From positions 78,085,501 to 78,149,500 of the forward strand of contig CP142452.1 of assembly GCA_038049695.1 (NCBI GenBank): a stretch of DNA of 64,000 nt, written 5' to 3'. Positions 26,449 through 64,000 of this stretch are shown one piece after another. Origin of the DNA: Cinnamomum chago (lineage: Eukaryota; Streptophyta; Magnoliopsida; Laurales; Lauraceae). The position numbers and the translations under genes are program-made. Within the stretch, counting starts at the first letter, position 1. The number at the start of each line of letters is the position of its first letter. The notes beneath the pieces were generated by a model. The model saw only the letters and a list, made by a program, of their open reading frames with translations, was not told the DNA's origin and did not search any database.

Positions 26449-29400
26449 TTACCACCCTTTACCTATGAGCCACAGCCAACCAAATGCTACACCCGCAAAG
26501 AGACCTGCCGTGAGAAATGATTGAATCACGTTCCCCAAAGCATTTTGTTCAGGACCCTACAGAAACAGAGCAGGATCCGTTAAAGGCAATATCTTATGAA
26601 GAAGAAGAAGAAGAAGAAGAAGAAGAAACAAAAAGGACCACAGTTAACAAAATTGTAACTCATTCTAGTTGACAGAACTATATTTTAGTTATTATCATGT
26701 CGCTTACAGATGCTAATTAAAGAGTTACACTATTATTCAAAATAGGCTGGCTTTGGCGAGCTTTCGGGTAGATCCATGGAAGCTGAGTAGAACCCTGGGA
26801 GCCTTCTGAGTTCTGATTTGAGTTGAATTTATGAATTGGGAACAATGTTTTCTAGTAAAGAATAATGGCATACTTGATTCGTAAGAGGTACAGCTTGCTT
26901 TGAAGAAGTAGGGCCAATGGTTCAAATAAAAGTTGATATTATGGCGGATGAGCTGTGAACTAAAGATCTCCAAGATAAGAGGATCCTAACCTTAATTTCA
27001 TCAATGGAAATAGGCAATATGAAAATTGAGCTATGATCCAACTTTAGTATGAAAGAAAATTGAATTATTGAACGGCTAGGAGTTTCAGATCTTGGAAGGG
27101 TTTTTCTCTTGTACAGGGCCTTCAATGTTGGGGCTCACAGACATTGATAATTTTTGGGTCATTACATCATGGGCCAAACTTGCGAAACTGAAACAAGTGC
27201 ATTTATCAGCCCAAATAGGTTCTCATTATGTGTGCATTTTATCAACCCAAATGAGTTCGCAGAAGTGATGGTGATGCAATGAGGAACTTAATGTGTGTGT
27301 TTTTTTTTTAAAGAGCCTTTAAAATAGGTGTCTTTTAAGTTTCTTTCAGTGTCCATTCACTAATGAGAAAAAGGGCTCTCTACCAAGGGATTCTGGAAAA
27401 GTTCTCTCTTCTTGGTGCTCGATGGAGAAGAGAAAGGCGAGGGGATTGCACTGTCATTTGGGGCTTCTTTCGGTGCTAGACACATTCTCATCTTGGTACA
27501 CATATTCAGGACAGAATTGGAGTTGGTAATCTCCTTGTTGGCAGTAGTGGAATCAATTCTGCGGGATTGCATATGGATGTAGTCATTTTGCGTGAACTAC
27601 ATAAATCATTTTGTTGGATCCTTCTTTACTTCTCTGTAATAATGCATTGTGGGTAATTTATAAGTGCTCTAGAAATCACTTTTTACTAAATATTTCAAAA
27701 CCGAGTTACTTGTGAATGAATTACGTACAAGTTATGGCCCTCCAGAGAAATACAAAGGTGGCGTAGTTTTTAAAGAATTTTGCAAACATATACATACAAC
27801 TTATGGTTTTGTTCCTTGTTTATGTTCTGGACATCACTATATAGTCAGACAAACATAACATCATGCCTCTGTTTTCAGGGTCTCTTACATGAAGAGACTG
27901 TGTCACACCTGGCATCAACACAGTTGCCTGTGTCAAGCATATTCAAGGCCTCAGGGGTTCATATGATATCCTTTTGTTTCACACTGAACAACTGCATAAA
28001 TTAGTAATCAACTGACGGGTCATATGATATCCTTTTGTTTCATACTTGACAACTGCATAAATTAGTAACCAACTGACCTTGTAACCTTTGGGCGCAGCCA
28101 TAAGAACACAAACAGTAAGGTGACCATTTGTTAACCCTAAGAATGAAGTCAGCATGATCATCCATCCTTGGTCACCATACTTGGCTGTAAAGTAGAATGC
28201 AGGGATGAGCAAGAAACGTGCAAGGGTAGCTATCATGAGGCCACTTCTTGATGTGATCCTTGAGCATTTAATAAGCGGAAGGTACCGAGAAATAAGATCA
28301 CACAGATTAAACACCGCTGTCAAAACCAACGAATACCTGAAAGAAGTCCAGAAAAAGACATCAGAGCTTAAGGAATGAAATTAATTTTCTACTCCGTTAA
28401 AGCACAAATAAATAATTCATCGGATGGAAAGTAATAGATCATCTGCACATTAAAGCACTTAAAGAGGATATATGAGTTCATCACATTTGTGGGAGCACAT
28501 GCGATCGAGACTTGAGTGTGATCTAGAGCATGTTATGTAAAAATAAAGCTAGTTAATGCACGCAGCCAATAAAAACCAGATCCTTTTCTACTACTGGCAA
28601 GGTAACTTAAAGGAACACCACTATGCATAAACAAAAGCGCCATTGTTACTGTACTATTGAGTTGATAGTTTATGAAATTTAATCTATGAAATCTAGTTAT
28701 CTAGGTCCTAAATTGAGGCTGGTAATTTAAAAAGTGTTTGAGGCTTACACTCAAGGCTCGCCTCAAGGAAGGACTTTTAGAAACACTCCATACCTCAAGT
28801 GGTGAGGCACATTCCTTCCACAAAAAAGCCAGGGATCGATCCCTAGATGTAGTACTGATGATGTGGGACTAGAGCATTGTGAGGGTGTCAGTATTTACCC
28901 CCACTATATGGGAAAATAGAAACATTGCATCATGCCACAATGTTTTAAAACATTGACAGAAACTTTACAAAAATTAATTATGTCAACACATATCAGATAA
29001 ATATCAACTGCAGGTTACTATATCATTGAATATCAAATAAAACGTTATAGGAAATGAACACTTACCAAGAACCTAAACCATGGGATCCAGTATCCTCGTC
29101 TAGAAACCCAGGGAATATTGAAAATGTGAGCACATATATCAGAAAAATATCAATTGCGTAATCTATATTTTTTAATAATAACTGCTTGTTGCTTAGGCGT
29201 TCTAATCGTTTATGGTCTTCTTCATCCTACAATAAATCCACATTCAAATTAGAAAACTAGCTTTAAAAAAGTGACAGTTGCAAAAATAAGAATTTGTAGC
29301 TTTGATTGATACATACACTTGGATAAGTCTGCATTTGGATGCCAGCAGCAGGAAGGTCAACTGAAACTGTTTTAGAACCTTCAGCAACTGCCTTGGAATG

Positions 29401-32400
29401 ATAATACTTAACAATAGGTAGTTTGGAGAATGCATATGCATAAAGGAAAACGCATACTAGCTCAAAAATTGCTGAGATCGCCAGAAATAACACTGTGATT
29501 GGCAATTAGATAGAATAATCGTTACAGAAACATCATGAATTTTGAGGCAGATAAGATATATTCTATGACGTAAAAATTAGATAGTGTTTTGCTGAAATCT
29601 ACAAAACTTGATTTGAAAACAAAAACATGCTGCAAAAGTATAAACATTCTGGTTATTTGGAAGAAGTAATGAACAAAAAAGGGATCGTTACATATTTGGG
29701 GTAGTGTAGGATTTGAAAAATCAGGTCATAGTTATTTTGTTATGAACCTTCTGCCTCAAATCATTATCGTGGTAATTCTTTGACGCATATTTGGAGCATA
29801 AAAGTCAAAAGAACACACACACACATACATATACATCCTACTAAATATGTGCTCCTGTTCTATTCAGTTCTGCCGAAATTCGAAGTTACAATTTGATTTA
29901 CACTATATCCGTGTGGACCCTGATGGGATATTTGGCATATATTATTAGTAACGTTTCCAGCCAAGAATCTTGGAAGAATGTCTCTTGAAGATTCTAATTT
30001 TCTAAAACTATAGGTCTAACCAAATCTCAATTAAATTTTGAAATGTTAATTACAGATTTACAGTAACTTAAAGGGGAGATCTAGTCATTTGGCAAAGTTC
30101 TCTCAAGGTGAAAGCTTTAATCATGTCAAGAAAAAAACCCACAGCTAACTGAATGGGGGATGGTATGTTTTTAGGCCTACGGGCCACACACAGGCCTCTT
30201 TTTCCAGCCTAGATATACTTAAAGGGGCCAGTACAACCCAACATATTTAACACAGGGGGGTTCATGTAGTTTGCAAATGGTTTGATCTAGGGATCGAACT
30301 TCAATCGTATTGGCAGGATCCAGGAATGAATATTAGTGTCAATACCTGCCTGGGTTGAGCTTGGGCAAGCATTGGCCCAGCATGACACATGAACACCCCA
30401 AAACTGACCCCAATTATTGAATAACCTTGAAGGGAGTTTTAGGGGCTATGATTTTTTTTCACTTATTTTGAATTTCTGCTTGTAATTGTTCCATAAACTG
30501 TCATGTTAGCAACTATTCAACAGATGGATTTAGAATGAATAAAGCTAATGGACAATGAACAAATTTTTCAAAAAAAAAAAAAAGGGGAATATACATGCTC
30601 CCTTCCGAAGGCCGCCTCTGGTATTTTCAAATGCTGCCTTTATGACAAGTCTGAGAGTGGAAGTTATAGTCCCGGATGCAGCTAAACCTGCCAAAAATGA
30701 CTGCAATGCCACAAGAACAGGCAAAATAAAAAAATATTTCAACAAGAGTGCAAATCTTTCAGTAAGAACCTAGGAAAGAAGTTTTCCACATCCTAAGAAA
30801 AGTAGTACGTGTTATTTCTGAAAAATCTCAAGAGTTTGATTCCTCTCTTAATTAAAATTTTCAAACACTCTCTTCATTAAGCATTTCAGACCTTTGTTAC
30901 TTCAAATCTCTAAATGTTATGCTTGTATTGTGTTTCATTATTTTAGTTCTCAAAAGGGTGTCCTCCAGACACTACGAGATAGAATATGAACATGCAACAA
31001 TTAACAAATTACCTGCATGAATTCAAGACTCATGTAAGATAGATCACCAACCATTCCACCTTGAACATGACCTTCTGCAACTCCAAAAGCAGCACTTATG
31101 GCACATATGCCAATATAAGCTCCAATTCCTCCACTTCCAGATGTTGCCAAATTCAACTACAAAAGGAAAGAGCATTAAAATAAGGTTAAATTTTATGGAA
31201 ATGTGTACTGAAAGACAAAATATATCATACTTAACCAAAATATAGAATGGCATTACTAGTTCATCTAGCAACCACGCAGATAAGCTGTCTATTTGCGGGT
31301 CGCAAGTTGTACATCTCAGATTTTGTCACTAATGAGAATGTTCTGAGAGTAGTCAACAAAATGATGCCTAGCAAAGAGATGGTCTGGCTCACCAATGGAA
31401 AATGACTATTGCTAAAAAAAATACATTTCTAATGTACAACAAGAACAATTAATTAGATTGAAAGAAAAAAAAGTTGAAAGGGATGATAGAATATAATAAG
31501 TAATTTTATTATAAATAGCACTTACAACAAGAACTAATACTGAGCCTATGAAGAAAAGAGTAAACCCAATCAAGTTGCGTAGTCTTGTATTCATCTTCGC
31601 TTCATAGTATGTCATTATTATCATAGTTCCGAATGCAAAAGATGTAACTGCAATAGTAAGTACTCTTGAGGGGTGATAGTTCTGCACAACAAAATAAACA
31701 ACAGCAATAGATTCGGTCATTCCAACTTCTCTAATTTATAATAGAAGCTCAATGATCAGTAACGTGGTTACAATGATAAAAATGCTGTTATGCATTTCCA
31801 TGTCATGTGAAAGTTATTTTAGACAGATAAATATGAAATAAGATTAAAGATATCATGAGTTCAATGAAAGGATTCTGAAAAGGAAGACGACGATATTGGT
31901 TCTTCTTGCTTATTGAGGTTTTCAAGTTTAAATACAACTCTAGAGATATATTAGTAGTCTCCGTTTATGATCTGTCAAGAATTGTGCAAGCATATTTTTG
32001 TTTTTTATAACGGTAATATTTTATTTAAACAGAAAAGACAAAAAGAAGAAACCAAAATAAAAACACAGCCACCCTAAAAAAGATTTGAACATCATAAGAA
32101 ATAGAAGAGTGAAAAACTCCGCATTATCCATTAAGTCCACTCTGACAAGAGATTGGTCCTCTAAATTATGAGAATCAGCTCCTTCATCACTAAAGCATAA
32201 ATTACAAAACAAAAAAGAAGAGATTAGGACCATTAGGTGTCTTTTCTTCCCTATAAAAAGGGGAGGGGGGACCTAGTGGACTTCAAATCAATGCATAGTG
32301 GCAAGGAAAGCAACTGTTGTGAAAGCAGTATTGGTAACTTGATATCTAGCATGGATGCATTGAGCCTTATCACTCAACATGGCTGTGTTAGTAATAATTT

Positions 32401-33059
32401 AAGGTTGATCATTTGTTCATGAATGAATGTTAAAAACGAGGAAAAAAAAAAACACTTGCTAACAAAACATTAGGTCCAAAAAATATTTTTGTCAAAGGAA
32501 AATTTAAGCAGAATAAACAGCATTGTGACATTACATTGGTTAAATGGAAAGTGTAAAATAGATTTGACTAAAAATGGCCTTATTTAAACAGGATCTGTTC
32601 TACAAGCTCGAACTTCTATATCCTTAAGTTTAAAAAAAATAAAGTTAGATTGACTAAACCATGTGACTTAACCTCAATTATATCGAGCTATTTCGACTAT
32701 TATGTTTTGAGTTGGCTTGATAAATGATGGAGATGATGTTTCACCATAGACCACAACTATAGTAATCATTACTAACCAATGAATATCTTAAGAGCATAAA
32801 CCATGAATGGAAAAGAAATGGAATCAAATGAATGCATTACCGGAAATACAGCGATATAGTAATCTAAGGTTGTCAACATGCTGTTCCATGGAAAGAGGCT
32901 GCCAGTTCCTAGAATCCAACATACAAACATTGCAGTGTACTTCCCCTGTTGATCAGAAGAAAGAAACATTAAGAATCTCTTTTAAATTCCACTAAACATA
33001 TTTGCATAAAACATTAAGCCTCAAACCTTGATTGCCACATTTTCATCATTAGAAGCCAT
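26449..33059 (-). CDS. ENT-B: equilibrative nucleoside transporter, 9 coding exons, 415 residues
   Basis: On the minus strand the exons are 33059-33027, 32945-32841, 31681-31526, 31156-31013, 30700-30595, 29492-29317, 29226-29066, 28336-28078 and 26556-26449. All have GT-AG introns and are open. Lengths are identical to ENT-A except for three bases in exon 1. Motifs include LFPWNSMLTTLDYY, YHPSRVLT, RLRNLIGFT, AEGHVQGGMVGDLSYM, FENTRGGLRKGA, LPIVKYYHSKA, AKYGDQGWMIMLTSFLGL and the C-terminal WLWLIGKGW. It is expected to be a multi-pass membrane carrier for nucleosides. It keeps the family motifs better than ENT-A. It is the mirror image of ENT-C across the inverted duplication, which suggests that the two had the same upstream control region. 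Confidence 0.9.
26598..26627. repeat. (GAA)n microsatellite in ENT-B intron 8
   Basis: About nine to ten GAA units just inside the last intron, near the acceptor of exon 9. Confidence 0.85.
27960..28080. repeat. ~61-base tandem duplication next to the ENT-B exon-8 donor
   Basis: Two adjacent copies of CATATGATATCCTTTTGTTT...CAACTGAC. One includes the used 5' splice site of exon 8 (minus-strand GTCAGTTGG, beside 28078). The other repeats the same GTCAGTTG word 60 bases into the intron, giving a second, unused donor-like site. Confidence 0.75.
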
Positions 33060-34087
33060 TGCTACTTCCCACCAATGAACCTGTAACAATGAGGAGCAGC
33101 ATATGACTGAAGTATCATAAAGATTGCTTATTATTTTTGTTAAGAAACCTTCTTTAGATGGAAAACAGACAAAATCTAATGCAATTTTCTACTACAAGTT
33201 TAACTGGTGTATATTTGAACAAAGAATAAGACCATATCATGCTTTAATGGTACATTACTTTTTCCTGACATTCCATTGGGAACATTTATACTTGGGACAA
33301 TTGAAAAAAAATATATGAGAAAATATAAGGTTTCAAATTAAGAAAAAGAAGTATAAGAAATCAGAAACTTTTTTTTTCTCTAAACTGTGAAGCATAAATG
33401 ATTGGTGTAAAATTAACTAATACTGGGGAAGTCTTTCTCTGAAATATTGATTAATGAATGAAAAAGAAAGAAAATTGATGAATAACTTGGGTTTTAGAGA
33501 AAAGACCACAGCATCAATTTCAAATTTCGCTTAATCCACTTGTTTTTTCTCTTTTCTACATACACAGATATAAATAACAAAAGAACCATCTCACAATCCA
33601 CCATCTCAAAGCAAGTCAAATGTCATAGCAATATAAGAATTGAAAGTCTATTCACAAAGAAAAAAAACTAATTCATATCTGAATCCTTTTCCACTGAAAA
33701 CTACACATGAAACAGAGGTTAAGAAATAGAGGCACAGGTTAGAAAAAGAAGATCCTTTTTCTAAATTCCGGAATAAGGATGCTTCTTGTAAAATTCACAA
33801 GTTGCAGATTATTGGGGACTTTTCTTCTTTTGAAAAAATGGTTAATGATAAATAGAAAATTTAAATTCCTGGTATTAGAAAAATGACTATGACCCCAGAA
33901 CCATTGTTGTAATGTACATCGATCATCTAATCACCAAAAACCATTTTCCTTCGTTCCAAGTTACTAACAACAAAAGCACCCGCAAGATAATCAGCCATAT
34001 GATAACTGAAAGTCTATTCACCAATCACCATTCAACAAAAAGAAAGGCTCCCATCTCAGTAAAAAAAAAAATTAAAAATGAAAAACA

Positions 34088-34108
34088 ACAACAACAACAA
34101 CAACAACA
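34088..34108. repeat. (CAA)n microsatellite upstream of ENT-B
   Basis: Seven CAA units. The ENT-C side has a shorter TTG run near 62581. Confidence 0.85.
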
Positions 34109-34502
34109 AAGGAAAGCAGCAATCATCATAATCCTACTTCATACATTGAAATTTTTCACACTATAATAAGCTTAAATTGATCATTGAAGCTAGTAACACT
34201 AATATTAAAAAACAAGGAGAAACCATGTGAACAGGTTATATCAACAGTGAAATATATTGGAGACTGATATTGTTTTTTCCGCACTGATTAATCTCTTGTC
34301 CACATGCAAATAAATATATGGAGCTGAGTACATATGGTTACCCCTATCTTGAAATGTGAACGCTAGGATAGGAACTGGCACCAGAGGAATATGAACATAT
34401 CCTTAAAAACAAGGCTCTGTAAGACAGGTTCCATGAAAAGAATATCTTATGACAAACGACTTAAAGCCTATTCAACAAAAGCAAAGGAACCCATATCCGT
34501 TA

Positions 34503-34706
34503 CAGCATGTCTTCATAATAAACAACAGAAAACATGAATAATCAAATCCCCAGTTCATATATATCTTGAATCCTTTTCCACCATAATGAGCATAAACAAC
34601 AAAACAGCATGTCTTCATAATAAACAACAGAAAACATGAATAATCAAATCCCCAGTTCATATATATCTTGAATCCTTTTCCACCATAATGAGCATAAACA
34701 ATAAAA
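34503..34706. repeat. 102-base tandem duplication upstream of ENT-B
   Basis: Two almost identical adjacent copies starting CAGCATGTCTTCATAATAAA, at 34503 and 34605. The mirror region upstream of ENT-C (about 62090-62200) has only one, so this happened after the inverted duplication. Confidence 0.9.
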
Positions 34707-35027
34707 ACAGAGGAAACCAATTCCATTACAACAAACTCAATGAGAAACAAAGAAAAACACGTAAGTAATCGAAACCCATTTCATATCTAGAACCCCTTTC
34801 CAATGCAATGACCTTCACTTGCTTAATCCAAGTACAAACAGTCATGAAAGTAAAAAAAAAAAACTAAAAAAAAATACAGGGAAACAAACAATGTTAACAG
34901 GTTTCTTGGAGACAAACCTACAACTCATACAGCAAGAAAGAAAAAGAGAAAGAGCACTCGTTGTTACAAACCCTACTTGATTCGCTTCCTTCTTTGTTTC
35001 TTTTTTTTTTTTTTTTCCTGGGGGGTG

Positions 35028-35280
35028 GGGAGCACTCGTTGTTACAAAATCTGCTTGATTCGCTTCCTTCTGTTGTTTTTTTGGTGGGGACAAAATCTGC
35101 TTGATTCGCTTCCTTCTGTTGTTTTTTTGGTGGGTCGGGGGGTCTGTTGTTTTTTTGGTGGGTCGGGGGGGGGGGGGGGGGCGGGGGGGGAGCACTCTTT
35201 GTTACAAAATCTACTTGATTCGCTTCCTCCTTTTTTTTTTTTTTTTTTTGGGGGCGGGGGGTGGGGGGGCGGGGGGGGGA
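35028..35280. repeat. Tandem repeats with very long poly(G) and poly(T) runs upstream of ENT-B
   Basis: About four imperfect copies of a unit containing GAGCACTCGTTGTTACAAAA and TTGATTCGCTTCC, separated by T-runs and G-runs. The longest G-run is 18 bases (35165-35182), followed by C and seven more G. A second G-rich tract lies at 35250-35279. These could form G-quadruplexes. The matching ENT-C region (61715-61790) has the unit once and only short C-runs. Confidence 0.85.
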
Positions 35281-35513
35281 GCTAGAGAAACCCGGGGTAT
35301 GTGGGACCCAAGCCCACCTATTTAAATCGTAACCGTTCAAAAACTAAACTCCTTTTAGACATAAAACATGTTCTTTTTCTTTTTCTTTTTCTTTTTTTCC
35401 AAAGGGTTCCCAACCTTTGGATTGGAAAAAAAAAATGGTAATGAATATATATGAATGAGATGTGTTACCCATGTCATTTATCAAATGGTCAATCAAGGCC
35501 AAACGCAATTCTC

Positions 35514-35550
<37 letters not shown>

Positions 35551-35656
35551 TTGAGAGAATTTATTTTGAACTGTTCAAATTTAAGTAAGTAGGTCTCAAT
35601 GTGGAATTAAAGCCTCTTAAACGGAGGATTTCTTTAGGTTAAAACCTCGTATGATA

Positions 35657-35830
35657 ACCCCGAGGGGTAGCTCAGTTGGCCTAAGACTACGGTTTGCATC
35701 CGGAGGTTGTGGATTCGAAACTGCTCTACCACACTGGGGCCACATGGGAATTTTATCCGACTTTCTCTCCTGGGCTCGTAGGGATTATTCTAGTCCAAAG
35801 GGCTGGAAACCCTACATTATAAAATAAAAA
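35657..35830 (+). mobile_element. tRNA-derived SINE
   Basis: The A box TAGCTCAGTTGG (35668-35679) and B box GGATTCGAAAC (35711-35721) are followed by a body ending CCAAAGGGCTGGAAACCCTA and an A-rich tail. The right arm of the inverted duplication lacks it at the matching place (about 59665), so it inserted after the duplication. It is the same family as the 3' part at 11385-11553. Confidence 0.8.
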
Positions 35831-38809: not shown

Positions 38810-39120
38810 TCTTATATTATAAGGCCTTTTGCCTGTCTAGTGATGAGCTTTACAGTCTTAAAATTTTTAATTTTCCTCCTGGGTACATGAACCAAATAAT
38901 ATGAAGCAAAAATTGCCTCAAATGCAAGTAATATATGTGATATTGCAATTTTTTTTATATACAAAATTGCACAATTCACATATTGAATTAATGGTATGAT
39001 ATGATTGAGAAAGAAGGTTAAGTTTTGCAGTATCACAAAAATTAAAAATTGTGATATTGCATTATTATAGGCATTTTCATCTATTCCCATGACATATATA
39101 CAATTAGTTGTACAGAGCAT

Positions 39121-46421: not shown

Positions 46422-46459
46422 GATTTCTATAATCTTTCCTATTCCTATTCCTAAACACC

Positions 46460-48500: not shown

Positions 48501-48559
48501 AGCTCGGCCCAGCACAGAAAAGGGCTCGGAGGGAGCGTCCCGAGATCAGGTTCACTGAT

Positions 48560-50640: not shown

Positions 50641-50689
50641 GAGGAGCATGAGGCGCCCTCGGGTTCGGAACAATCACAATGCCATGCCG

Positions 50690-52422: not shown

Positions 52423-52535
52423 TTTATATGTTTGTACAGTGCTTCTGGATTTAATAGAACTACGTTCGTTTTGGGGCAAGTTGATGATCAATGGCAATGT
52501 GACAGCGACAATGGTGCGAGTATGGAAGACCGTCT

Positions 52536-52972
52536 AAGGATGGCACTCAGCCACCTAGACGAGCTGCCGAAACGGGAAACGACCCATGTCTAAAGATGAC
52601 ACTCAGCCACCTAGACGAGCTGCCGAAACGGCCCATGTCTAAGGATGGCACTCAGCCACCTAGACGAGCTGCCGAAACGGCCCATGTCTAAGGATGGCAC
52701 TCAGCCACCTAGACGAGCTGCCGAAACGGCCCATGTCTAAGGATGGCACTCAGCCACCTAGACGAGCTGCCGAAACGGCCCATGTCTAAGGCTGGCACTC
52801 AGCCACTTAGACGAGCTGCCGAAACGGCCCATGTCTAAGGCTGGCACTCAGCCACCTAGACGAGCTGCCGAAACGGCCCATGTCTAAGGATGGCACTCAG
52901 CCACCTAGACGAGCTGCCGAACTAGTTAAGGTTATGGTTGGCACTCAGCCACGTAGACCAGCCGAAACGGCA
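52536..52972 (+). repeat. 49-base tandem array between integrase and antisense ORF
   Basis: About eight copies, starting at 52536, 52592, 52641, 52690, 52739, 52788, 52837 and 52886, plus a diverged ninth. The unit contains GGCACTCAGCCACCTAGACG, AGCTGCCGAAACGG and CCCATGTCTA. The middle copies are almost identical. Confidence 0.95.
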
Positions 52973-53272
52973 CCAGACGATAATGGCACCCAGTCTTATC
53001 ACTGCCTTAGGCCTGGTGCGATTCTTTGTTTTCGCCGAAGGGGTCAGAGCGCTCGCGGGGAACCCTAATCTAACCGGTCCACTCTAGTCCGAACTCACAC
53101 CCAGATTCATAACACTCACTGAAAGCGTACAAAGGAAAAGCAAATAAAAGCCACACCACACAGGAGACAAATATGAGAAAGGGCCTTTCATTGATAACAT
53201 TGATACATACACTGGAGCTTACATTGAAATAGTTTGAAACAAAGACTACATTTTATAAGAAGAAAGAGGAAG

Positions 53273-55435
53273 TCAAGTCGACGGCCCTGCTTCTATGTCT
53301 TCGATAACGACCACGGCGGCCTCGGCTTGAGGAGCTTCTTCAACGGGGTCAGGCGTTGGCTCGGAAGGGACTTCGGCCGGAGTGGCAGGGGTCTCGGCCA
53401 AGGCTTCATCTAGGGGCTCATCTCCGAGCTCGGGGAGATTCTGATATTTCGGATCATCTGCAGGAACCCCCATCTTCTTCAACACGGCCTTGCAGCCGAG
53501 TCGGTACAGCTTCGGGCTGAGTGCCGTGATTTGATCAACATAAATTTTCGCAGCTTCCTCAGTCCCCTCCAGGAAGGCGGCATCGACCTCGGCTTTTTTC
53601 GATGCAAGGAGTTCCTCCTTCGATGCAAGAAGTTCCTCCTTCGCCTTCCTTTCCAGCTCCAGCTCGGCCTTGAACCCCGCCGACCTCTTTTCCTCTGCCT
53701 GGAGCTTCGTTTGCCGCTCGAAGCTCTCTGACCTTGCTTTGCAGAGGTCGCTGGCCATTATATCTGATTGAGCATTGAGCTCTGCAGTCTTGGCCGCCTC
53801 CGCCTTCAGCTCATCCTTGGCCGCCTTCAGTTCGGCTTCGGCTCTCTGCTTTTCCTTTGCTAGGCGGGCCAGCCGGTTGTCCTCTTCCGTTATTCTGTCA
53901 GCGACTATCTGGAGCCTTTGGACAGCCTGCAGCGGAGCAAACGAAAAAAGCTCAGCACGAAAGCAAGAAATATCAAAAGATAGAAACACCTGTGACCAGG
54001 AAAGTCGGGCACTTACAGCGAGGGAGTGCTGTATGGTCCTCATAAGCAGCAGGGGGGAGTCTTCCGACCTGTGCCTCTCCATGTCCTTGGGGAGTGCACA
54101 GGCTCGGCTGAGCGCCGCAATGACATCTGGGCTCCCCACCAGTCTGTCCTCAGCATTTAGGGGCCTCCCCTTCCTCAGCTCCATGTCCGGCCTGAACTCG
54201 GCCGGTTCGGCACCCGAGGACGTTGCCGCCCGGGGCTCGGAGCGACTCTCCACCAGAGGAACCGCCGGAGTGGGCACCACGTCCGCTGCCCTCTCCCTCG
54301 CAGCTTGGGGTGAACGTTGCCGTGATCGCTCCTCCTGATCCAGCCCCTTCCCCTTCGCCTTTTTCCTCGGCCTCTCGCTTTCCGAGTCTGGGGGAGGTCG
54401 GGCCTCAACTCTGGCAGGGACGATGGTCCCGAAGGAGGGCGGGGCAGTGCGGGGTGCGGCAGCCTGTCTACCGCCACCGAGGACGGCGTCCGCCAGATTC
54501 CGCGGCTGAAACGCGGGCCTGCGCCTCTCCATATTGTCGGCTTCGGCCTCGGCTCCGGAAGAATAGTTCTCAACTTCCCTTGTCGGAGAGTCTACCTCGG
54601 CTCCGGAGGTATAGTCTTCAATTTCCCTTAGCGGGATGCCCGTGACCACGGCCAATGTAGTGGAAGCTCCCACGACCGAAACGGTCCCGCTGGTTTCGGC
54701 TAGATCGGGGGCGAAGTTCTCCGGGTTTCCGGATTTCCGTGTATAAGACACGTATCTCGGCTCGTACTTCAGAAGGGAGTAGGCAGCCCTTGTGTGGTGG
54801 CCGCGGTAGCAGTACACCTTGTTCAGCCAAGGTGCGTGCCTCCTCCAACCGTTCAGCTGGGCTTCGCGCTTGCGTTCAGAAAGGCCTGCGAAAAACAGCC
54901 GAGTTAGAATCCGGCAGCAGAAATCAAACATAAGAAAGAAATCGGAAACCCAGGGGGTTAGGTCTTTACTCGGTGGAGTCCCGAGGCGTCGAGGGACTCG
55001 GACCCTCCTAGTTGCTTCGGTCTCGGTCTCGCCGAACTCCCAGTTTCCCGAGACGAGCAGGCGGTCATCTCCGGCGTATTTATTGGAGTCCTCCAGCGCC
55101 GTGACGAGGGGTTGGCACCTCGCCTTGACGCGAAGATAATAGGTGCCCGCCTCCCTAAACTTGCAGAGGTCATATATATCCTCTATATCATGGACGCCGA
55201 GGCTGATGTCTAGAATCCTATTCAGCTCGGCGATGCCCATGATGATCTTATACCCATTGGGCATTAACTGACAGGGGCTAAGGTTCCAGGTCTCCAAACA
55301 AGACCTAAGAAGGGGGGCCAAGGGGAATCTGACCCCACCCTCGATCACGGCTATCAGGGGAAACGGCATCCAGCCGTTGCGAAATGAGTAGATGGAGGGG
55401 TCGGCTGCCATGATCTGGACATCGTCTGGGATCAT
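53273..55435 (-). CDS. Antisense ORF of the Tat element (putative gypsy-type transposon/PMD-like protein), 720 codons
   Basis: The start is ATG at 55435 (MIPDDVQIMAADPSIYSFRN). The N-terminal ~260 residues (FPLAPLLRSCLETWNLSPCQ, KIIMGIAELNRILDI, TYYLRVKARCQPLV, LNGWRRHAPWLNKVYCYRG) match the domain annotated as putative gypsy-type transposon (PF04195), known from antisense ORFs of Tat elements. A disordered acidic, arginine- and proline-rich middle and a long coiled coil (residues ~505-620, with EELLASK repeated) follow. Two stretches with GT...AG borders, 84 bases (54886-54969) and 90 bases (53927-54016), are in frame, lack the composition of their flanks and look like introns the ORF can be read with or without. 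It looks whole. The role is unknown. Confidence 0.85.
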   Translation of the reverse strand: MIPDDVQIMAADPSIYSFRNGWMPFPLIAVIEGGVRFPLAPLLRSCLETWNLSPCQLMPNGYKIIMGIAELNRILDISLGVHDIEDIYDLCKFREAGTYYLRVKARCQPLVTALEDSNKYAGDDRLLVSGNWEFGETETEATRRVRVPRRLGTPPSKDLTPWVSDFFLMFDFCCRILTRLFFAGLSERKREAQLNGWRRHAPWLNKVYCYRGHHTRAAYSLLKYEPRYVSYTRKSGNPENFAPDLAETSGTVSVVGASTTLAVVTGIPLREIEDYTSGAEVDSPTREVENYSSGAEAEADNMERRRPAFQPRNLADAVLGGGRQAAAPRTAPPSFGTIVPARVEARPPPDSESERPRKKAKGKGLDQEERSRQRSPQAARERAADVVPTPAVPLVESRSEPRAATSSGAEPAEFRPDMELRKGRPLNAEDRLVGSPDVIAALSRACALPKDMERHRSEDSPLLLMRTIQHSLAVSARLSWSQVFLSFDISCFRAELFSFAPLQAVQRLQIVADRITEEDNRLARLAKEKQRAEAELKAAKDELKAEAAKTAELNAQSDIMASDLCKARSESFERQTKLQAEEKRSAGFKAELELERKAKEELLASKEELLASKKAEVDAAFLEGTEEAAKIYVDQITALSPKLYRLGCKAVLKKMGVPADDPKYQNLPELGDEPLDEALAETPATPAEVPSEPTPDPVEEAPQAEAAVVVIEDIEAGPST

Positions 55436-55811
55436 GTAGACTCTCCTAAGAGTTGCCAGGCCCGACTGGGAATCTATTCAATGGGTGAAAATCCCCATCT
55501 CTGAATCTAAGGAACCCTAACAATCTCTAGAGGTCTAAACCGTGGAAGGTCTGAGAAACGGAGGAGACCCTAGGTGGGGTCAGGGCAGAAATACAGAATG
55601 AAAAGAGAAGAGAATCGAGGCAGGGAGACTCACAGACTCGGGCGAAGTCACAAATCAGGCCGTTGATCCCTCACCGGCCCGCAATGAAGTCCCGGACGAA
55701 GCTAGGAGGCGATGGAGGTGGTTCTGGCAGTGAAGGTTCTGGCGAGCAAAAGTTCTAGCAGAGCTTCGACAGGGTTAGATTGCAGAGATGACAAAGGAGG
55801 AAGACGAAAGC

Positions 55812-55821
55812 GTATATAAAG
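55812..55821 (-). promoter_or_regulatory. Possible promoter of the antisense ORF
   Basis: Minus-strand CTTTATATAC lies ~380 bases upstream of the antisense start, with a CT-rich stretch just downstream. The same bases read as TATATAAA on the plus strand, so orientation is not proven. Confidence 0.35.
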
Positions 55822-56179
55822 GGCAGAAATGGGCGCCATCCCGGAATTCGAAGCAGGACACGCGTGAAATGTCGCCTCGGCTTGCATCGCACGCCCCCTC
55901 GAAAAGACAAGAAAACCTACTAGGCAATAACGCGTGGCGCTGTGGCGACGATGGTCCGCCTTCCCATGCTAATCATAGCCCCGCATTTATTGCCCCCTTT
56001 TATTATCTCTGGCAGACGAAGCAGCGGCGGCGTCTGGCGCCGAATGAGTCAGAACCCTTAAACAAAAGCGGATGGAAGGCGAGCACTATCCGTCTCGGGA
56101 GACCGGTTCAGTTCTTAACCCTAGTGCGGGGGATCAGTCCAGCTCTTAACCCTAGTGCCCGAGAGAGCCCTAGAGGTCA

Positions 56180-56195
56180 AGAACTGAGGGGCTAT
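56180..56195 (+). other. Polypurine tract of the Tat element
   Basis: AGAACTGAGGGGCTAT directly precedes the 3' LTR. The AGGGGCTAT form is frequent in Tat-lineage elements. Confidence 0.65.
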
Positions 56196-56917
56196 TGTGT
56201 GGGGGCCCATTTCTTGAACCTGTTCCTCTTGGTCTCGGCAAGGGTGCGCTCAGATATGCTGACGTGTAGGAGCCATTTCTCTTGATCTCGGCTACGATCC
56301 GTTCCATATCGGTCTCGGCACTACGTGCTGGTCTCGGCCAAGCAGAATTCAGTTCGGCCGCGCATACCGTTCAGTCTCGGCAATGCAAGCTCGGCAATGC
56401 AGAATTGCGCTTGCAGCTAACAGCCACGGCCCTATCGTGGCAAGGCCCAAGGAAGGGATCTGATGGGACTTCAGCCACCACCAGATCAGGGCAAGATTAA
56501 ATGCATTGTGGGCTGATCGGACCCACATTAAATGTAGTGTGGGCTGATCGGACCCACATTAAATGCAAAGAGGGCTATGATGGACCTTCATTAATGACTT
56601 TGTGGGCTGATGTGACCCAGGTCACATCACCAAGCCCACTGGCATTCACCCAAGACTGTTCCATATATAAGGCACGAGCCAAAGGGAGCAGGGGGTAAGC
56701 AATTCTCACAGAGACAGTCTTTCTTCTTCTTCTTCTTCTTCTCCGATCCATTGCTGACTTAAGCATCGGAGAGCCCTGCGCTGCCCATAGCCAGGGTCCT
56801 CTGACCTTTGTCTTTCTCCTCTTTCAGGTTCATACTGTCGCAGCTATCTCCTCCATGCATTGAGTAAGTCCTAAGAGGCATTCTGATCTTGTGAGTATTA
56901 TTATTTCTGCACTTACA
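56196..56917 (+). repeat. 3' LTR of the Tat element
   Basis: 722 bases, same ends as the 5' LTR, TATA box at 56664-56670. It differs from the 5' LTR only by three substitutions and one CA dinucleotide. Confidence 0.95.
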
Positions 56918-57171
56918 CACTCTGCCCTTCTCTCCACACGGCACTAAAAAATGGTGGATTCCAGCCTCAAGGAGAGTCCAATTCATACCTGAAAATTCCA
57001 CAAAAAAGTTTGCAGTACTGGATTCCCCAAGCCATGCAATATTTCCAAGCGTGTTGTGCTGTATAATACTCCTTCAATAAAATCCACCATGCTGTGCATA
57101 TGGGTGCCGAGGACCTGGGCCAACTCAATATGGTCATGGAGCTTACTTAAATCAGGGTGTACAATTACATA

Positions 57172-57560
57172 TTAGCAAAACACGCCCGCGATAATTTATA
57201 ATATTAAAAAATAATTAATAATTTAAAATAATTAATTTAAAATTAATTATTTTGACCATAGATTTCTAGATTATGACCATAGATCTATGCAACGTGTATC
57301 CTTATAAGTTAAAAAGAATATTTTGAGATCACATGAGAAACCATCTTTATCTAAAAGTCTAATGTGTAGATAGCTGTGTTGAATGTGTTAGAGTCTATAT
57401 TTAAATGACTAAAATCGAAAATTTCCCCAAAATCCCTAAAATCTCTCCTTAAATTAAAATTGAAATCGAAATTGAGCTCCAATTTTGCAATCAATTGCAA
57501 AATTAGAGCTCAATTTCGAAATTGAATCCAACCTCTATAATATATATATATATATATATA
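57172..57560 (-). mobile_element. Helitron-like non-autonomous element
   Basis: On the minus strand it ends with CGCGGGC, GTGTTTTG and CTAA (57172-57175) followed by T. This is similar to the CTAG end at 38806. The interior shares ATCAATTTCGAAATT-like and TTGATTGCAAAATTAGA-like words with 38130-38200. Around 57456-57512 there is a ~25-base perfect-type inverted repeat (GAAATTGAGCT...AGCTCAATTTC). The 5' end near the AT microsatellite at 57540 is inferred. Confidence 0.5.
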
Positions 57561-58352
57561 ATAATAATAATATAGGCCATTTAACCTATCATTCATATCT
57601 AAACAAGGATTTCTCCTCCCTCTCTTGAAAATTTGAAAATTTTCCCTGCAATGCTCTACTAGGGGTGTAAATGGGTCTCCGATTCTAAATTACATAGAGT
57701 TTCGAGCCATTAAAAATTAGTTTGGATCCTTATTTAAGCCCTACTTGGGCCCACCGGAAGAAGACTTGATATAGAAGCCCTGGTAATCACGTTATCGTGT
57801 TTTTTAACGTGCAACTTCCCAACACTTACCTTCTTCTGCTAATGTCCAGAACCTAATGAGTGGATCTCCCACTCATTACCATGGAATTCCATGGTGGGGC
57901 CCACGCACTGGCCATCTTAGAGGTTGGAAATAGTGATGAAAAATATGGGTCCATAGACTCAATACTTTCCGTTCCTTCTTTTCCAGAAGTGCTGGAACAT
58001 GCGTTTAATTCCCTTTCTTTTATACCTTTTTATGAAAAAATTTCTTTTCCAAGGGTGGAATGTTCCAACGAAGGCATCCATGAAAACATGCAACTTTCAT
58101 AAGGGGACTGTGGACCCAACCATTTCTTCCAATAAGTTTATATTCGTGACAGGTTGTCACTTTTAAAACGTTTTTTTGTGTCATCCATTTTGGAAAGAGT
58201 ATAAATGTTCTATAATGACTGCTATAATGATCCGTATCTTTAAATTATGGGAATAACTATGAAATTGTTGTATGAAAGTATATCATTAGTAATTTTTAAG
58301 ACGTGGGTATCCCCGCCATTTTTTTGACCTAACAGGACCAAACCTCCGGGTG
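57561..58352. other. Intergenic DNA of the right arm
   Basis: A partial hAT MITE trace lies at 57661-57760 (AGGGGTGTAAATGGGTC). The 57860-58350 part matches the left arm near 35990-36400. No gene is seen; the 80-residue frame at 57860 has no motif. Confidence 0.55.
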
Positions 58353-58361
58353 GCACCCACC

Positions 58362-59512
58362 TGTGGCGGACCCAGGATTTTTATTTAGGTGGGGTGAGAA
58401 TATTTTGGACTTTGCTAGACTTTTTTCTACATCCACAAATAGTAAAAAAAACAAAAAATGTATTGCATTCAAAAGAAGAAGAATAAATAAGTAGTTAAAA
58501 CTCAATTTCTATTATTTCTATAATTTTATGCGTGAAAGGCCTATTGATTTGATGAATGAGATCGATGGCCTATATTATTTAATGGCGCTACGTGTAAAGC
58601 ATCCAAAACACCCTCTTCGTTCTTATATGGTTTTACTCGTGTTTTGAGCAACGTTCAGCTTTTCATTGCACTTGGATATATATTGAGAAAATAGAGCGAA
58701 ACATTACAGTGGAGCTCATTTACTTGAATCTGAGCCCTGCAAAATAAAGGTCTTTAAATATATATGATATCGAGAATCATAATTAATCCTACCGTTCGAT
58801 TGACTTTTTCATAAAAAAAAATAAAAATGTGATCAACATTATTTTATATATATTTATTTCTATTTTTTATCAAATGATTAATCCAATAGTGAGACCGACT
58901 CAAATGGAGATCTCATATGGGGCAAGGACGTTGGAATGTGGTATTGGCTTAATGGGTTCTTTTAAGTTTTCATGTTTTATTCTTACTCCAAAGCATTTGT
59001 AATTTCAACAAGACAGATATATAAAATATTTTGGAGGTGGGGCAGTTTTTTGGGAATGACCAGGAGACCATTTTCAATTTTGGGGTTTGTCCAAGTCGCC
59101 CCAGGTCCTAAGCCAATTATAAGGACCCCATCATTTCTAAGTGGGGCCAATGCCTTCCCCATGTCATAGTGGCGGGTCCCATCCATCTCGATCTGGACAG
59201 AGAGCTGCACACTAGGATGTCTGCCTTTGCGTACATGAGCATAAGTGGGACCCATACCCCATGGTCCAACCTACGAGTTTTGTCCTCCTTGACACGCCCA
59301 AACCCTGCTTTTGATGGCAGTTCATTCACCTTCTTCGCCAACTGTGGTGCACCTTGTACTGGATATTTGAGCTGCCATTACATACACAGTTTATCTAAGG
59401 CAGTTTAAAAATTGACCCAGGGCGATAGGTCCGCCACTGACTTGTGAGCTCCCATTACATACACAGTTCATGTAAGGCAATTTAAAAGGTTGACTCTATG
59501 TCGGTCCGCCGA
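58362..59512. mobile_element. Pack-type DNA transposon (MULE-like by 9-base target duplication)
   Basis: 1151 bases with the identical 9-base flanks tggcaccca at 58353-58361 and 59513-59521. The left arm shows the empty site at about 35995-36003. The ends contain GTGGCGGACC and, inverted, CGGCGGACC. The last ~78 bases are a partial copy of the piece just before (59373-59440 against 59452-59512). It has no transposase, but carries a fragment of a LigB/DODA-like gene. Nine-base duplications favour Mutator-like; an 8-base reading would allow hAT. Confidence 0.7.
59105..59395 (-). pseudogene. Captured fragment of a LigB-family 4,5-DOPA-extradiol-dioxygenase-like gene
   Basis: On the minus strand one frame reads [16 protein letters not shown], then [20 protein letters not shown] and AKADI. 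After a one-base shift near 59215, the next frame reads [20 protein letters not shown] and [13 protein letters not shown]. This follows the order of plant LigB/DODA proteins (YPAPGAPQLA, RGLDHGAWVPL, QLSVQ, GKALAPLKDEGVLIIGSG), including the histidine of LDHG that serves the active site in the family. Only ~90 residues are present, out of ~270. It lies wholly inside the transposon, so it was carried here and is not a native gene. Confidence 0.75.
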
Positions 59513-59521
59513 TGGCACCCA

Positions 59522-60038
59522 CTAAATCCACATAAATGTCCATGTCTCATGCCACTCCAAGTGGGTGTAAATGTATATAATTAGTCGGCCCGTAAGAACT
59601 TTTCAGATGATGAATTAATAATTCTACTAGTCCCCGAGCATATATCGAGTTTTGATCATACGAGTTTTAACCAGAAGAAATTTTGAGTTTAGGAGGATTT
59701 AATTCCACATTGAGTCCTACTCACTTAAATTTGAACAGTTCAAAATATACTCCCACAAGGTATATACATGAGAATTGTTTTTGCCCTTGATTGACCATTT
59801 GATAAAAGACATGGTTAACATATCTCATACATAGTTTTAGCCTAATAGGAGTTTATTTTTGAATGGTTCCAATTTAAATAGGTGGGCTTGGGTCCCATAT
59901 CCCCAGGTTTCTCGAGGCTTCCATTCCCATTGGTCATGGGTGTGAAAGTATGTTGTACCGATTTAAATAGGGGCATTCGGCGAGAGGTCCATCAAAGTAT
60001 GACTTTGTTGCAAACAGTCCGCAAAAAAAGTCTTGCAG
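59522..60038. other. Right-arm intergenic DNA, no gene
   Basis: 59520-59925 matches the left arm 35285-35990 in reverse complement. The remainder, to 60038, has no match and no motif. Confidence 0.6.
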
Positions 60039-61642
60039 CTAAAGGTCCTCTAACACATTTCCATACCTGATATGTCTAATTTACCATTTCTTTAAATCAT
60101 ATTCCATTATTAGTGGGATATCCCATTAATATTAGTCAACTATCATTTAATGGGTCATGATTAATGAAATTTCATTAATGAGATTTTCAAAAAAATTATA
60201 AAAACACACAAATAAATTTTAAAAAACGCAAATAAATTTCAAAAGAAGGCAGATAAATTTAAATAAATTTAAAAAGGCACAAATAAATTTCAAAAAATAT
60301 AAATAAATTTCAAAAGATGAAAATCAATTTCAAAATATCCAAAATAAATTTCAAAAGATCCAGATAAATTTCAAAAAATATAAATAAATTTCAAAAGACG
60401 TAAATAAAATTAAAAAATATAAATAAATTCAAAAAAACGCAAATACATTTGCCAAAACTAAGATAACCCAATTTTTCAAATTAGCGAACAATGTGGCAAA
60501 AAACTCAAATCTTTTTGTCAAAAACTTAGTTAAATTTATTTCAAAAAATACAAATAAATTTCAAAAGACATAAATAAAATTCAAAAACACAAATTGATCT
60601 AAGAAAATACAAATAAATTTGCCAAAAACACATAAATATTTGTTCATAAACTCAGTTAAATTTTTTTAAAATGGAAACAAATTTGTCAGAAACTCACCTA
60701 TATTTTTCAAAAACTCAAATAAATTTGCAAAAAACTCAGATAGATTTGTTTATAACTCAGATAGATTTGTTCCGGAAACCAGATAAATAGTAAAAAACTC
60801 GGATAGATTTGTTCAGAACTCATATAAATTTGTCCAGAACTTAAATAAATTTGTTCCAGAAGTCAGATAAATAGCCAAAAACTTAGATAGATTTGTTCAG
60901 AACTCAAATAAATTTGACAAAGAAAAAAAAAACTCAGATAAATTTGACTTTGATTGGAATGGGAATGGACTTCTGGAACGGATCAGGTCGAACATGACCT
61001 GGAACCAACCCAGAACTGTTGTAGAGCTCAGGCACACTTTCTTCTTCTTCTTCGTAAACACAAAAGCCATCTTCCGTTCGCCTTCTTCCTCGATTCCGGC
61101 AATGGTATGGCGCGGCGTCCGGTGGCGATCCCCCTTCTCTGGCGACACGCAGGAATGACGGTGGCTCAGAAAATCCGGCGATAGTGCAGAAGATCGTCTT
61201 CTTTTTCATTTCGTGTTCTGCAAGTCTGCAATAGAACCTGGGCAAGGTTGTAGGGGTCTTTTTCTTCCTCTCCGGCAACGGCGTGTGGGCTAAGAAGCAA
61301 CAACGTTTGGCAATACTATTTCTCTGAAAAACCCCAATCATTTTTCTGGAAAAAAAAAAATAGAGATCGATCTCAACTGTTGAGATCCAATCCGTCAATG
61401 TCCATGTCCGAATTAAAGAAGAAAAAGAGGGAGAATGGAAGATTTAAAATTTTATGCCTAATCAGTTGAAAGGGCAAATCAGTCATGAAAATGTATGAGG
61501 TCGCATGTCTAGGGACCTCTCTCCATGAGATGACGTGTCTAGGGACTCTCACCTAAATATATCCAAGATGCATGAACTACAGGCCTTAGAGGAAAAGTTA
61601 ATTCACTGAAGGTCTTACAAGTCCTATACAAGGGACCTTTAG
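60039..61642. mobile_element. Candidate DNA element with CTAAAGGTCC inverted ends
   Basis: CTAAAGGTCC at 60039-60048 pairs with GGGACCTTTAG at 61632-61642. The interior has no counterpart in the left arm, where the corresponding interval is only ~0.3 kb. It holds the AT-rich array below and a GC-richer part (60950-61400) with a 154-codon minus frame that has no known motif. No clear target duplication is seen, so this is tentative. Confidence 0.35.
60190..60940. repeat. AT-rich degenerate tandem array, ~15-17-base unit
   Basis: Dozens of variants of CAAATAAATTTCAAAAA, and later AACTCAGATAGATTTGTTC, follow each other. The unit length drifts and no reading frame is kept. Confidence 0.8.
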
Positions 61643-61844
61643 CTAATTATGTCATTTAAATAAACCTTTTTGGACCGCCAGGGGAAGTTTCAATGAATCT
61701 TTAAACAAGAATCTTTAAACAAACCCCCCACCCCACCTAAAAAAGAAGGAAGCGAATCCAGTTGATTATGTCACGAGTGCTCTGTCTTTTTCTTTCTGAA
61801 TGCAGAACTGTTATTGTTACTTGAGGCCTTTGAACATTTCAATG

Positions 61845-61930
61845 AGCTCTGTTGCTGTATGAGTTGTAGGTTTGTACACGGGGTGTTATCTCCAAGAAAC
61901 CTGTTAACATTGTTTGTTTCCCTGTAATTT
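61845..61930 (+). promoter_or_regulatory. Conserved block upstream of ENT-C, probable non-coding first exon
   Basis: It shares GAGCTCTGTT and CCAAGAAACCTGTTAACATT with ENT-A (9236-9330) and ENT-B. The region from here to 63680 is the mirror of the ENT-B upstream region, but lacks its 102-base duplication and long G-runs. Confidence 0.45.
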
Positions 61931-63679
61931 TTTTTTTTTTACTTTCATGAGTGTTTGTACTTGGATTAAGCAAGTGAAGGTCATTGCATTGGAAAGGGGT
62001 TCTAGATATGAAATGGGTTTCGATTACTTAAGTGTTTTTCTTTGTTTCTCATTGAGTTTGTTGTAATGGAATTGGTTTCCTCTGTTTTCGTTGTTTATGC
62101 TCATTATGGTGGAAAAGGATTGAAGATATTCATGAACTGGGGATTTGATTATTCATGTTTTCTGTTGTTTATTATGAAGATATGCTGTAACGGATATGGG
62201 TTCCTTTGCTTTTGTTGAATAGGCTTTAAGTCGTTTGTCATAAGCTATTCTTTTCATGGAACCTGTCTTACAGAGCCTTGTTTTTACGGATATGTTCATA
62301 TTCCTCTGGTGCCAGTTCCTATCCTAGCGTTCACATTTGAAGATAGGGGTTACCATATGTCCTCATCTCCATATATCTATTTGCATGTGGACAAGAGATT
62401 AATCAGTGCGGAAAAACAATATCAGTCTCCAATATATGTTCACTGTTGATATAACCTGTTCACGTGGTTTCTCCTCTTCTTCTTTTTTTTTAATATTAGC
62501 TTCAATGATCAATTTAAGCTTATTAGAGTGTGAAAATCTTCAATGTATGAAGTAGGTTTATGATTGCTGCTTTCCTTTGCTGTTGTTGTTGTTGGGTTTT
62601 TTTTATTTATAATTTACTGAGATGGGAGCCTTTCTTTTTTGTTGAATGGTGATTGGTGAATAGACTTTAAGTTATCATATGACTATGGTATTTGACTTGA
62701 TTAAAGACGGTGATTATCTTGCGGATGCTTTTGTTGTTAGTAACTTGGAAAGAAGGAAAATGGGTTTTGGTGATTAGATGATGTACATTACAACAATGGT
62801 TCTGGGGTCATGGTCATTTATCTAATACCAGGAGTTTAAATTTTCTATTTATCATTCACCTATTTTTCAAAAGAAGAAAAATCCCCAATAATCTGCAACT
62901 TGTGAATTTTACAAGAAGCATCCTTATTCCAGAATTTAGAAAAAGGATCTAATTTTTTCTAACCTGTGCCTCTATTTCTTAACCTCTGTTTCATGTGTAG
63001 TTTTTAGTGGAAAAGGATTCAGATATGAATACATTTTTTTGCTTTGTGAATAGACTTCCAATTCTTATATTGCTATGACATTTGACTTGCTTTAAGATGC
63101 TGGACTGTGAGATGGTTCTTTTGTTATTTACATCTGTTTACTTTGTAAAGAGAAAAAAAAGTGGATTAAGCGGAATTTGAAATTGATTCAGTGGTATTTT
63201 CTCTAAAACCCAAGTTATTCATCAATTTTCTTTCCTTTTCATTCATTAATCAATATTTCAGAGAAAGACTTCCCCAGTATTAGTTAATTTTACACCTATC
63301 ATTTATGCTCCACAGTTTAGAGGAAAAAAAAGTTTCTGATTTCTTATACTTCTTTTTCTTAATTAGAAAAGTTATATTTTCTCATATATTTTTTTTCAAA
63401 ATTCTCCCAAGTATAAATGTTCCCAAAGAAAAATGTCAAGAAAAAAGTAATGTACCATTAAAGCACAATACAGTCTTATTCTACACCAGTTAGACTTGTA
63501 GTAGGAAATTGTGTTATATTTTCTGTTGAACACATTATTCTTTGCTGGCATATTACTCAAGTTTTTGTCTGTTTTCCTTCTAAAGAAGGTTTCTTAACAA
63601 AAATAATGAGCAATCTTTATGATACTTCAGTCATATGCTGCTCTTCTCATTGTTACAGGTTCATTGGTGGGAAGTAGCA

Positions 63680-64000
63680 ATGACTTCTAATGATGAAAAT
63701 GTGGCAATGAAGGTTTGAGGCTTAATGTTTTATGCTAATATGTTGAGTGAAATTTAAAGAGATTCTTAATGCTTCTTTCTTGTGATCAACAGGGGAAGTA
63801 CACGGCAATGTTTGTATGTTGGATTCTAGGAACTGGTAGCCTCTTTCCATGGAACAGCATGTTGACAACCTTTGATTACTATATCGCTATATTTCCGGTA
63901 ATGCATTCATTTGATTCCATTGCTTTCCATTCATGGTTTATGCTCTTAAGATATTCATTGGTTAGTAATGATTACTATAGTTGTGGTCTATGGTGAAACA
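63680..64000 (+). CDS. ENT-C: equilibrative nucleoside transporter, first two coding exons only (cut by window end)
   Basis: Exon 1 is 63680-63712 (MTSNDENVAMK) and exon 2 is 63793-63897 (GKYTAMFVCWILGTGSLFPW, then NSMLTTFDYYIAIFP). Lengths are the same as ENT-B. Over these 46 residues it differs from ENT-B at four positions and from ENT-A at clearly more. A 5' UTR intron acceptor (TTGTTACAG) precedes GTTCATTGGTGG. The last ~100 bases are intron 2. Whether the rest of the gene is intact lies outside the window. Confidence 0.85.

Follow-up and report, generated by a model that had tools for sequence, protein, structure and literature searches.

A probable head-to-head inverted duplication in an ENT transporter cluster beside an LRR-RLP array of Cinnamomum chago

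How did two copies of an ENT transporter gene come to be transcribed away from each other on either side of the last exon of a leucine-rich repeat receptor-like protein (LRR-RLP) gene? This question is raised by a 64,000-nucleotide stretch of contig C2 of the Cinnamomum chago genome (C2:78085501-78149500; hereafter the window, numbered from its first letter), in which a first-pass annotation had noted a large inverted duplication. We compared the window with itself and with the 1.06-Gb genome (14 contigs) after adding 50 kb of left flank and 30 kb of right flank (144 kb in total, -50 to +94 kb), together with related stretches of C4, C12 and C1, and used the window reversed without complementing as a control for inverted homology. 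The locus is real, larger than first noted and of an ordinary known kind, and the account that we favour, with reasonable though not high confidence, holds that a segment of a dynamic ENT cluster beside an LRR-RLP array was duplicated in inverted, head-to-head orientation. A literature search of open-licence papers showed no earlier report of this locus among the entries listed.

Self-comparison revealed inverted homology in collinear blocks on either side of a centre at 40439-44164, while the reversed control gave 0 matches at E ≤ 1e-10. With the flank included, the anti-diagonal runs from 21836/82104 to 40438/44165, spanning 18.6 and 37.9 kb, and the two copies are opposite in orientation, collinear and accompanied by their non-coding flanks, as expected of a head-to-head inverted segmental duplication. 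The proposed duplication is thus borne out by comparison with the sequence past the window's end and is more extensive than had been claimed (21.8-40.44 against 44.17-82.1 kb); a palindrome ending at the window's end is ruled out, as the flank carries homology to 82.1 kb. The main block pairs 26433-34607 with 62082-70351 (8380 columns, 91.7%) and the outer block pairs 21836-23274 with 80699-82104. Inside the window the pairs are 32737-34607/62082-64000 and 34604-34935/61852-62188, followed by smaller blocks that continue inward to 40200-40438/44165-44400. The earlier pairing of 26.4-40.44 kb with 44.17-64 kb therefore stands for 32.74-40.44 kb only, the partner of 26.4-32.7 kb being 64.0-70.35 kb, beyond the window; within it, 26.4-32.7 kb pairs only with ENT-A (9.2-18.5 kb, inverted, blocks of 71-83%), and its other matches are simple repeats of 21-23 bases. 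Nor is 44.17-64 kb arm throughout, since its collinear blocks surround a long terminal repeat (LTR) retrotransposon at 45678-56917. Homologous sequence covers 14368 of the 18603 bases of the left arm and 14369 of the 37940 bases of the right arm (26695 when the retrotransposon and one copy of its target site are excluded), or 4093 and 4021 bases inside the window alone.

The exon at the centre bears directly on which arm is the original. On the left, homology stops at 40438 and the exon starts at 40438 after CAG, so that the first-pass observation of an arm ending at the splice acceptor is correct. It carries LRR repeats, has the C-terminal tail known from its relatives and aligns at 92% to residues 117-780 of the best of them, P0001 of Cinnamomum, with different final residues. 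An upstream N-terminal exon, with the start and part of the LRRNT, was not found at this locus: the N-terminal ~118 residues of P0001 and three other relatives gave no match within -50 to +94 kb at E ≤ 0.01, and the best match of the P0001 N-terminus in the window alone was chance-like (E 0.045). What had been called an LRR receptor gene is accordingly supported as a last exon within the 3.7-kb centre and not as a whole gene. It shares with LRR-RLPs of the RLP14/15/56 kind the LRR exon, the P0001 C-terminal tail and the exon boundary of its array paralogues, but differs from them in that no 5' exon was found at this locus. The exon would be a remnant, at best a truncated gene, and the centre would have no function of its own.

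Some 0.1-0.4 Mb upstream, C2:77.52-78.01 Mb holds an RLP array in which at least six exon loci share the same strand. Stretches resembling the inner arm lie 4-5 kb downstream of four RLP loci and ~17 and 31 kb downstream of two, while a pair at 77.517 Mb is near none. The start assigned to the exon is supported by these paralogues: of the six RLP exon loci (C2:77.71-78.00 Mb, one strand), five have a match whose first base is exon base 3. All 14 scored outside matches of the inner arm (39492-40437) fall within C2:77.52-78.01 Mb, at least 12 on the plus and at least 2 on the minus strand. Two array stretches that were read consist of inner-arm-like sequence followed, 92 bases on, by the last 59 exon bases and the 3' flank; they resemble each other, hence are not independent, and both read as RLP relics from which most of the exon has been lost. 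At C2:77999691 a paralogue has an intron end and acceptor that match those of the window. Because this paralogue and the relics share the intron end, the inner end of the left arm is native RLP intron, joined to the exon at an ancestral junction; it follows that the right arm is the rearranged copy. As assembled, ENT upstream sequence, RLP intron and native RLP last exon form one continuous series.

This native setting leaves the notion of a mobile LRR exon, a retrocopy or captured fragment dropped into the centre, with next to no credence. A related RLP 3' fragment does occur in multicopy sequences on C1, C12, C8 and C10, and the centre is a mosaic, but the exon is preceded by RLP intron sequence known from this genome's own array, and the multicopy fragments match within 41171-42758 only, are rearranged and are shorter than the exon of the window. 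Insertion of the exon into the centre was ruled out on the identity of the inner arm with RLP intron.

The inner junction of the right arm adjoins other sequence, as had been stated, and that sequence proved to be a dispersed repeat cut at 44162/44163 by the junction. Five dispersed matches reach the junction point and all four that were inspected continue beyond it with shared sequence, ruling out a natural transposable-element end as the boundary. Downstream of the exon there is thus, as the alignments read, a second, inverted block comprising dioxygenase 5' flank, ENT gene, ENT upstream region and RLP intron end, with its inner end on a truncated repeat. We give very little weight to the suggestion that a splice-site-related process set this inner end and that translation starting in the intron end rescued the truncated RLP by making it a short new receptor. 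A frame of 676 residues, beginning MSKNPLTIFLLIAAFCKLQ, runs from an in-frame ATG at 40398, and its hydrophobic, signal-peptide-like start (highest 9-residue mean hydropathy 3.14) comes from the polypyrimidine tract; in the paralogue, the frame at the corresponding place breaks off at a stop after four residues.

Divergence between the arms is quoted block by block because a global alignment of the whole arms misaligned its middle (identity 0.38-0.62 over ~34.9-39.5 kb). Between ENT-B and ENT-C, K is 0.053 in an alignment of 8067 columns (block identity 0.949). Identity is even along these 8 kb, lying at 0.936-0.972 in each of sixteen full 500-base windows and at 0.909 in the final 44 columns; the longest identical run in the largest in-window block is 74 bases, against ~95 expected. 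Such even divergence indicates that the arms are not being homogenised, and on these figures the ENT-B/ENT-C pair represents no collapsed allele and no homogenised palindrome. The blocks of the inner arm are more diverged (K 0.06-0.20, i.e. 6-18%), the dioxygenase-flank block has K 0.071 and one block beside ENT has K 0.024. An assembly artefact, in which two loci or haplotypes were joined in inverted orientation, is improbable on the same grounds: C4 holds a cluster so similar (long blocks of 92-98%) that it might have confused an assembler, but the arms differ by at least ~5% and carry one-sided insertions, one with a clean target duplication, ENT-C is distinct from the C4 twin of ENT-B (K 0.052), the RLP relatives support the left junction, and the 144 kb contain no N.

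The retrotransposon in the right arm has a TG...CA LTR pair, a 5-base duplication, gag, reverse transcriptase (RT) and integrase, and was assigned to Ty3/gypsy. Its LTRs are 99.3% identical (K 0.0042), and at the matching place the left arm has a single CACTC and no element. The low LTR divergence, the CACTC duplication and this empty site together place the insertion long after the duplication, and the element entered the right arm alone.

These features also bear on a predicted consequence of the palindrome, proneness to rearrangement and hairpin transcripts, which is not supported, the arms being ~5% (ENT) and 6-18% (inner part) diverged and interrupted by insertions that include the 11-kb retrotransposon. 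A known plant case is the head-to-head VIM4-VIM2 pair of Arabidopsis thaliana Cvi-0, for which the available text of PMC13213937 describes a ~6.4-kb repeat whose genes are 100% identical and whose centre measures 50 bp, and demonstrates small interfering RNA (siRNA). Both loci have two plant genes of one family head-to-head in an inverted repeat at a structurally variable place. Here, however, the arms are ~5-18% diverged and the 3.7-kb centre is accompanied by an 11-kb insertion. Thus neither the near-identical arms of siRNA-type inverted repeats (VIM4-VIM2 or PAI) nor their short read-through centre were found: identity is 0.949 with inner K of 0.06-0.20, and the start codons of ENT-B and ENT-C are 30.6 kb apart with the LTR element in between. 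As the two genes are transcribed outward from the centre across this distance, the two arms are unlikely to give rise to hairpin RNA. The wider proposal of an active palindrome, in which gene conversion keeps the arms alike or hairpin RNA silences the ENT genes, appears very improbable. The siRNA of VIM4-VIM2 and the lower divergence of the ENT-flanking parts relative to the inner arm speak for it; against it stand the lack of homogenisation, the outward-facing genes with a retrotransposon between them and, as reported in the same source, an origin of VIM4-VIM2 by a deletion that left a 50-base centre between genes given as 100% identical. A palindrome maintained by gene conversion was likewise not what we found, though divergence is lower in the ENT parts than in the inner blocks.

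The two transporter genes themselves are most likely ordinary working nucleoside/nucleotide transporters. ENT-B matches PF01733 at 101 bits (cut-off 29.8), which makes it a member of the ENT family; ENT-C has an open frame, and of the two genes the Pfam scan covered ENT-B. The closest proteins to ENT-B are Cinnamomum proteins annotated as 'equilibrative nucleotide transporter 3-like' and an unnamed protein of Persea; for ENT-B and the LRR exon alike, the nearest relatives are Lauraceae (Cinnamomum micranthum at 96% for ENT-B and 92% for the LRR exon). Within the plant ENT family (PF01733), ENT-B is a full-length member from which ENT-C differs little, and the pair presents nothing unusual beyond local expansion. 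The ratio dN/dS between the two is 0.45, with dS 0.070. ENT-A and ENT-B are convergent, and the exons of ENT-A were found but not assembled into a complete frame. The neighbouring dioxygenase gene was ruled out as part of the copied block, since all that the right arm holds of it is the 5' flank and first-exon sequence for 20 residues (82015-82074).

A second ENT cluster, at C4:15.584-15.651 Mb (L037-L044), corresponds to -4.8 to 37.4 kb of the window in long blocks of ~92-98% and comprises two tandem ENT-A-like copies and a twin of ENT-B. The joined frame of this twin is open, with one donor AT instead of GT, and in 80 kb of C4 neither ENT-C nor any RLP exon match was found. The twin is followed, in direct orientation, by a dioxygenase-flank stretch (15644456-15649882), the join 15644459|15644456 corresponding to window coordinates 37430|82672; this stretch has K 0.04-0.05 to the right arm of C2, about the age of the ENT-B/ENT-C split, and its dioxygenase is limited to 20 residues' worth.

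The arrangement on C4 lends some weight to the main rival, in which a direct tandem array came first and the ENT-C unit was later inverted, with no inverted duplication event. The direct order of ENT-B twin and dioxygenase-flank stretch, and the divergence of the latter from the right arm, speak for it, and we regard it as unlikely but far from negligible. The palindromic homology stays collinear beyond 37.43 kb and reaches 40.44 kb, a continuation not expected of an inversion with its break at 37.43 kb, and C4 is no clean outgroup, its ENT-B split (K 0.015) being younger than that of ENT-B and ENT-C (0.053). The same comparison disfavours C4 as the pre-duplication state. ENT-C differs from the C4 twin by K 0.052 and other C2/C4 stretches that were measured give K 0.020-0.058, whereas the values for ENT-A (0.28) and for ENT-X (0.19) include misaligned stretches and are good for rough order only. 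Ranked by divergence, the ENT-A and ENT-X splits come first (roughly), then that of ENT-B and ENT-C, then that of the C2 and C4 ENT-B twins and finally the LTR insertion. No absolute dates are given because the available text of PMC7125107 and PMC6784883 contains no substitution rate.

Several observations weigh against the head-to-head inverted duplication that we favour. C4 has an ENT-B twin and a direct dioxygenase-flank stretch with no ENT-C in 80 kb. Divergence is uneven, with K 0.024-0.053 in and beside ENT against 0.06-0.20 in the inner blocks and 0.071 in the dioxygenase flank, so that an event of a single age requires either constraint that differed between the parts or some old gene conversion around ENT. 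The dN/dS of 0.45 reflects moderate purifying selection only, and the right arm stops within one base of the splice acceptor, an exact stop that we treat as coincidence. On the inverted-duplication account, an ENT unit would have landed inside or 5' of an RLP gene, severing its first exon, before any copying took place; a copy of the block would then have been set down, in reversed orientation, on the downstream side of the exon that remained, perhaps through ordinary break repair that involved either template switching or the end joining of an ectopic copy, and both ENT copies would have been retained as working, divergently transcribed transporters.

Segmental and tandem duplication are named as contributors to Cinnamomum evolution in the portion of PMC6784883 available. 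The locus resembles opposite-orientation tandemly arrayed genes, as treated for vertebrates in the accessible part of PMC2547482, in that neighbouring paralogues arise by local duplication; 72-94% of tandemly arrayed genes are parallel there, so that the opposite orientation is in the minority. The C. chago locus differs in that the copied unit holds part of the intron of an unrelated gene, and that study does not concern plants. The locus illustrates how plant transporter and receptor clusters may grow, by inverted copying of blocks and acquisition of pieces of neighbouring genes, with later transposons providing dates, and ENT-B and ENT-C offer a clean pair of open, divergent duplicates with a relative date. 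It also calls for caution, as an LRR exon at the centre of a palindrome looks striking and yet proves native, probably a remnant of the adjoining RLP array. Coordinates are collected in Table 1.

Table 1 Features of the window and its right flank (window coordinates).
Feature	Position	Strand	Details
ENT-A	11048..18437	+	Older third copy; 71-83% DNA blocks to ENT-B; exon matches to P0129; ATG and stop located
2-oxoglutarate (2OG)-Fe(II) dioxygenase exon frames	20031..21912	-	PF03171, PF14226; beside ENT-B; just the 5' edge (from 21836) within the arm
Left arm (18.6 kb)	21836..40438	+	2OG-dioxygenase 5' flank, ENT-B, ENT-B upstream region, RLP intron end; anti-diagonal blocks
ENT-B	26449..33059	-	Nine exons, 415 aa, open, GT-AG introns; PF01733; 96% to Cinnamomum micranthum protein
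Native RLP intron 3' end	39868..40437	+	Inner end of left arm; copied in right arm (44165-45679)
Last exon of LRR-RLP gene	40438..42428	+	Open throughout; LRR Pfam matches; 92% to P0001
Centre (3.7-kb mosaic)	40439..44164		RLP exon and 3' flank, C4-shared stretch, truncated dispersed repeat
Stretch with 97% C4 copy	42841..44070	+	On C4 behind the dioxygenase-flank stretch, with no adjoining RLP exon
Dispersed repeat	43716..44163	+	Matches on C5, C6, C7, C9; right end cut by right-arm junction
Right arm, in-window part	44165..64000	-	Runs on to ~82104 (C2:78167604)
Right-arm-only stretch (339 bases)	44401..44739		Arm alignment
Right-arm-only stretch (503 bases)	44810..45312		Arm alignment
Target-site duplication CACTC (5 bases)	45673..45677, 56918-56922		Flanks the retrotransposon
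Ty3/gypsy LTR retrotransposon (11.2 kb)	45678..56917	+	LTRs 45678-46401, 56196-56917; TG...CA ends; gag, RT, RNase H, integrase in Ty3 order
ENT-C	63680..70335	+	Start and first two exons (63680..64000) in window; 415 aa, open, standard splice sites

Other observations concern the insertions and additional copies in and around the cluster. Between the integrase and the 3' LTR of the retrotransposon, a 720-aa frame without a Pfam match (53273-55435, minus strand) lies antisense to gag-pol; extra antisense frames of this kind occur in gypsy elements of the Tat lineage. The 503-base right-arm insertion seems, by eye, to be bordered by a near-direct repeat (AGCCTGATGA / AGCCTAATGA) and is probably another small transposon insertion. 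Elsewhere in the right arm, a short frame at 59120-59377 (minus strand) matches LigB (PF02900, extradiol dioxygenase) at 41 bits. Three diverged copies (69-80% blocks) of one ENT-cluster stretch lie at 18888-19137, at 42828-43139 in the centre and at -3744 to -3455. The 3' part of the RLP exon (41171-42758) was found in five places, one on C1 (L048/L012), one on C12 (L017), one on C8 (L018) and two on C10 (L019, L020), which are 86-97% alike where compared; the RLP match ends at 42758 in four of the five and at 42681 on C8, and the sequence is probably a mobile element with a captured RLP piece. Directly past the ENT-C stop codon there is a partial second copy of the ENT last exon (70343-70396, L029), and the further ENT copy ENT-X lies ~40 kb left of the window. 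On C12 (29.013-29.023 Mb; L045, L046), an interrupted ENT-B-like copy is present in pieces that are 91-95% identical to ENT-B and 91-93% identical to ENT-C.

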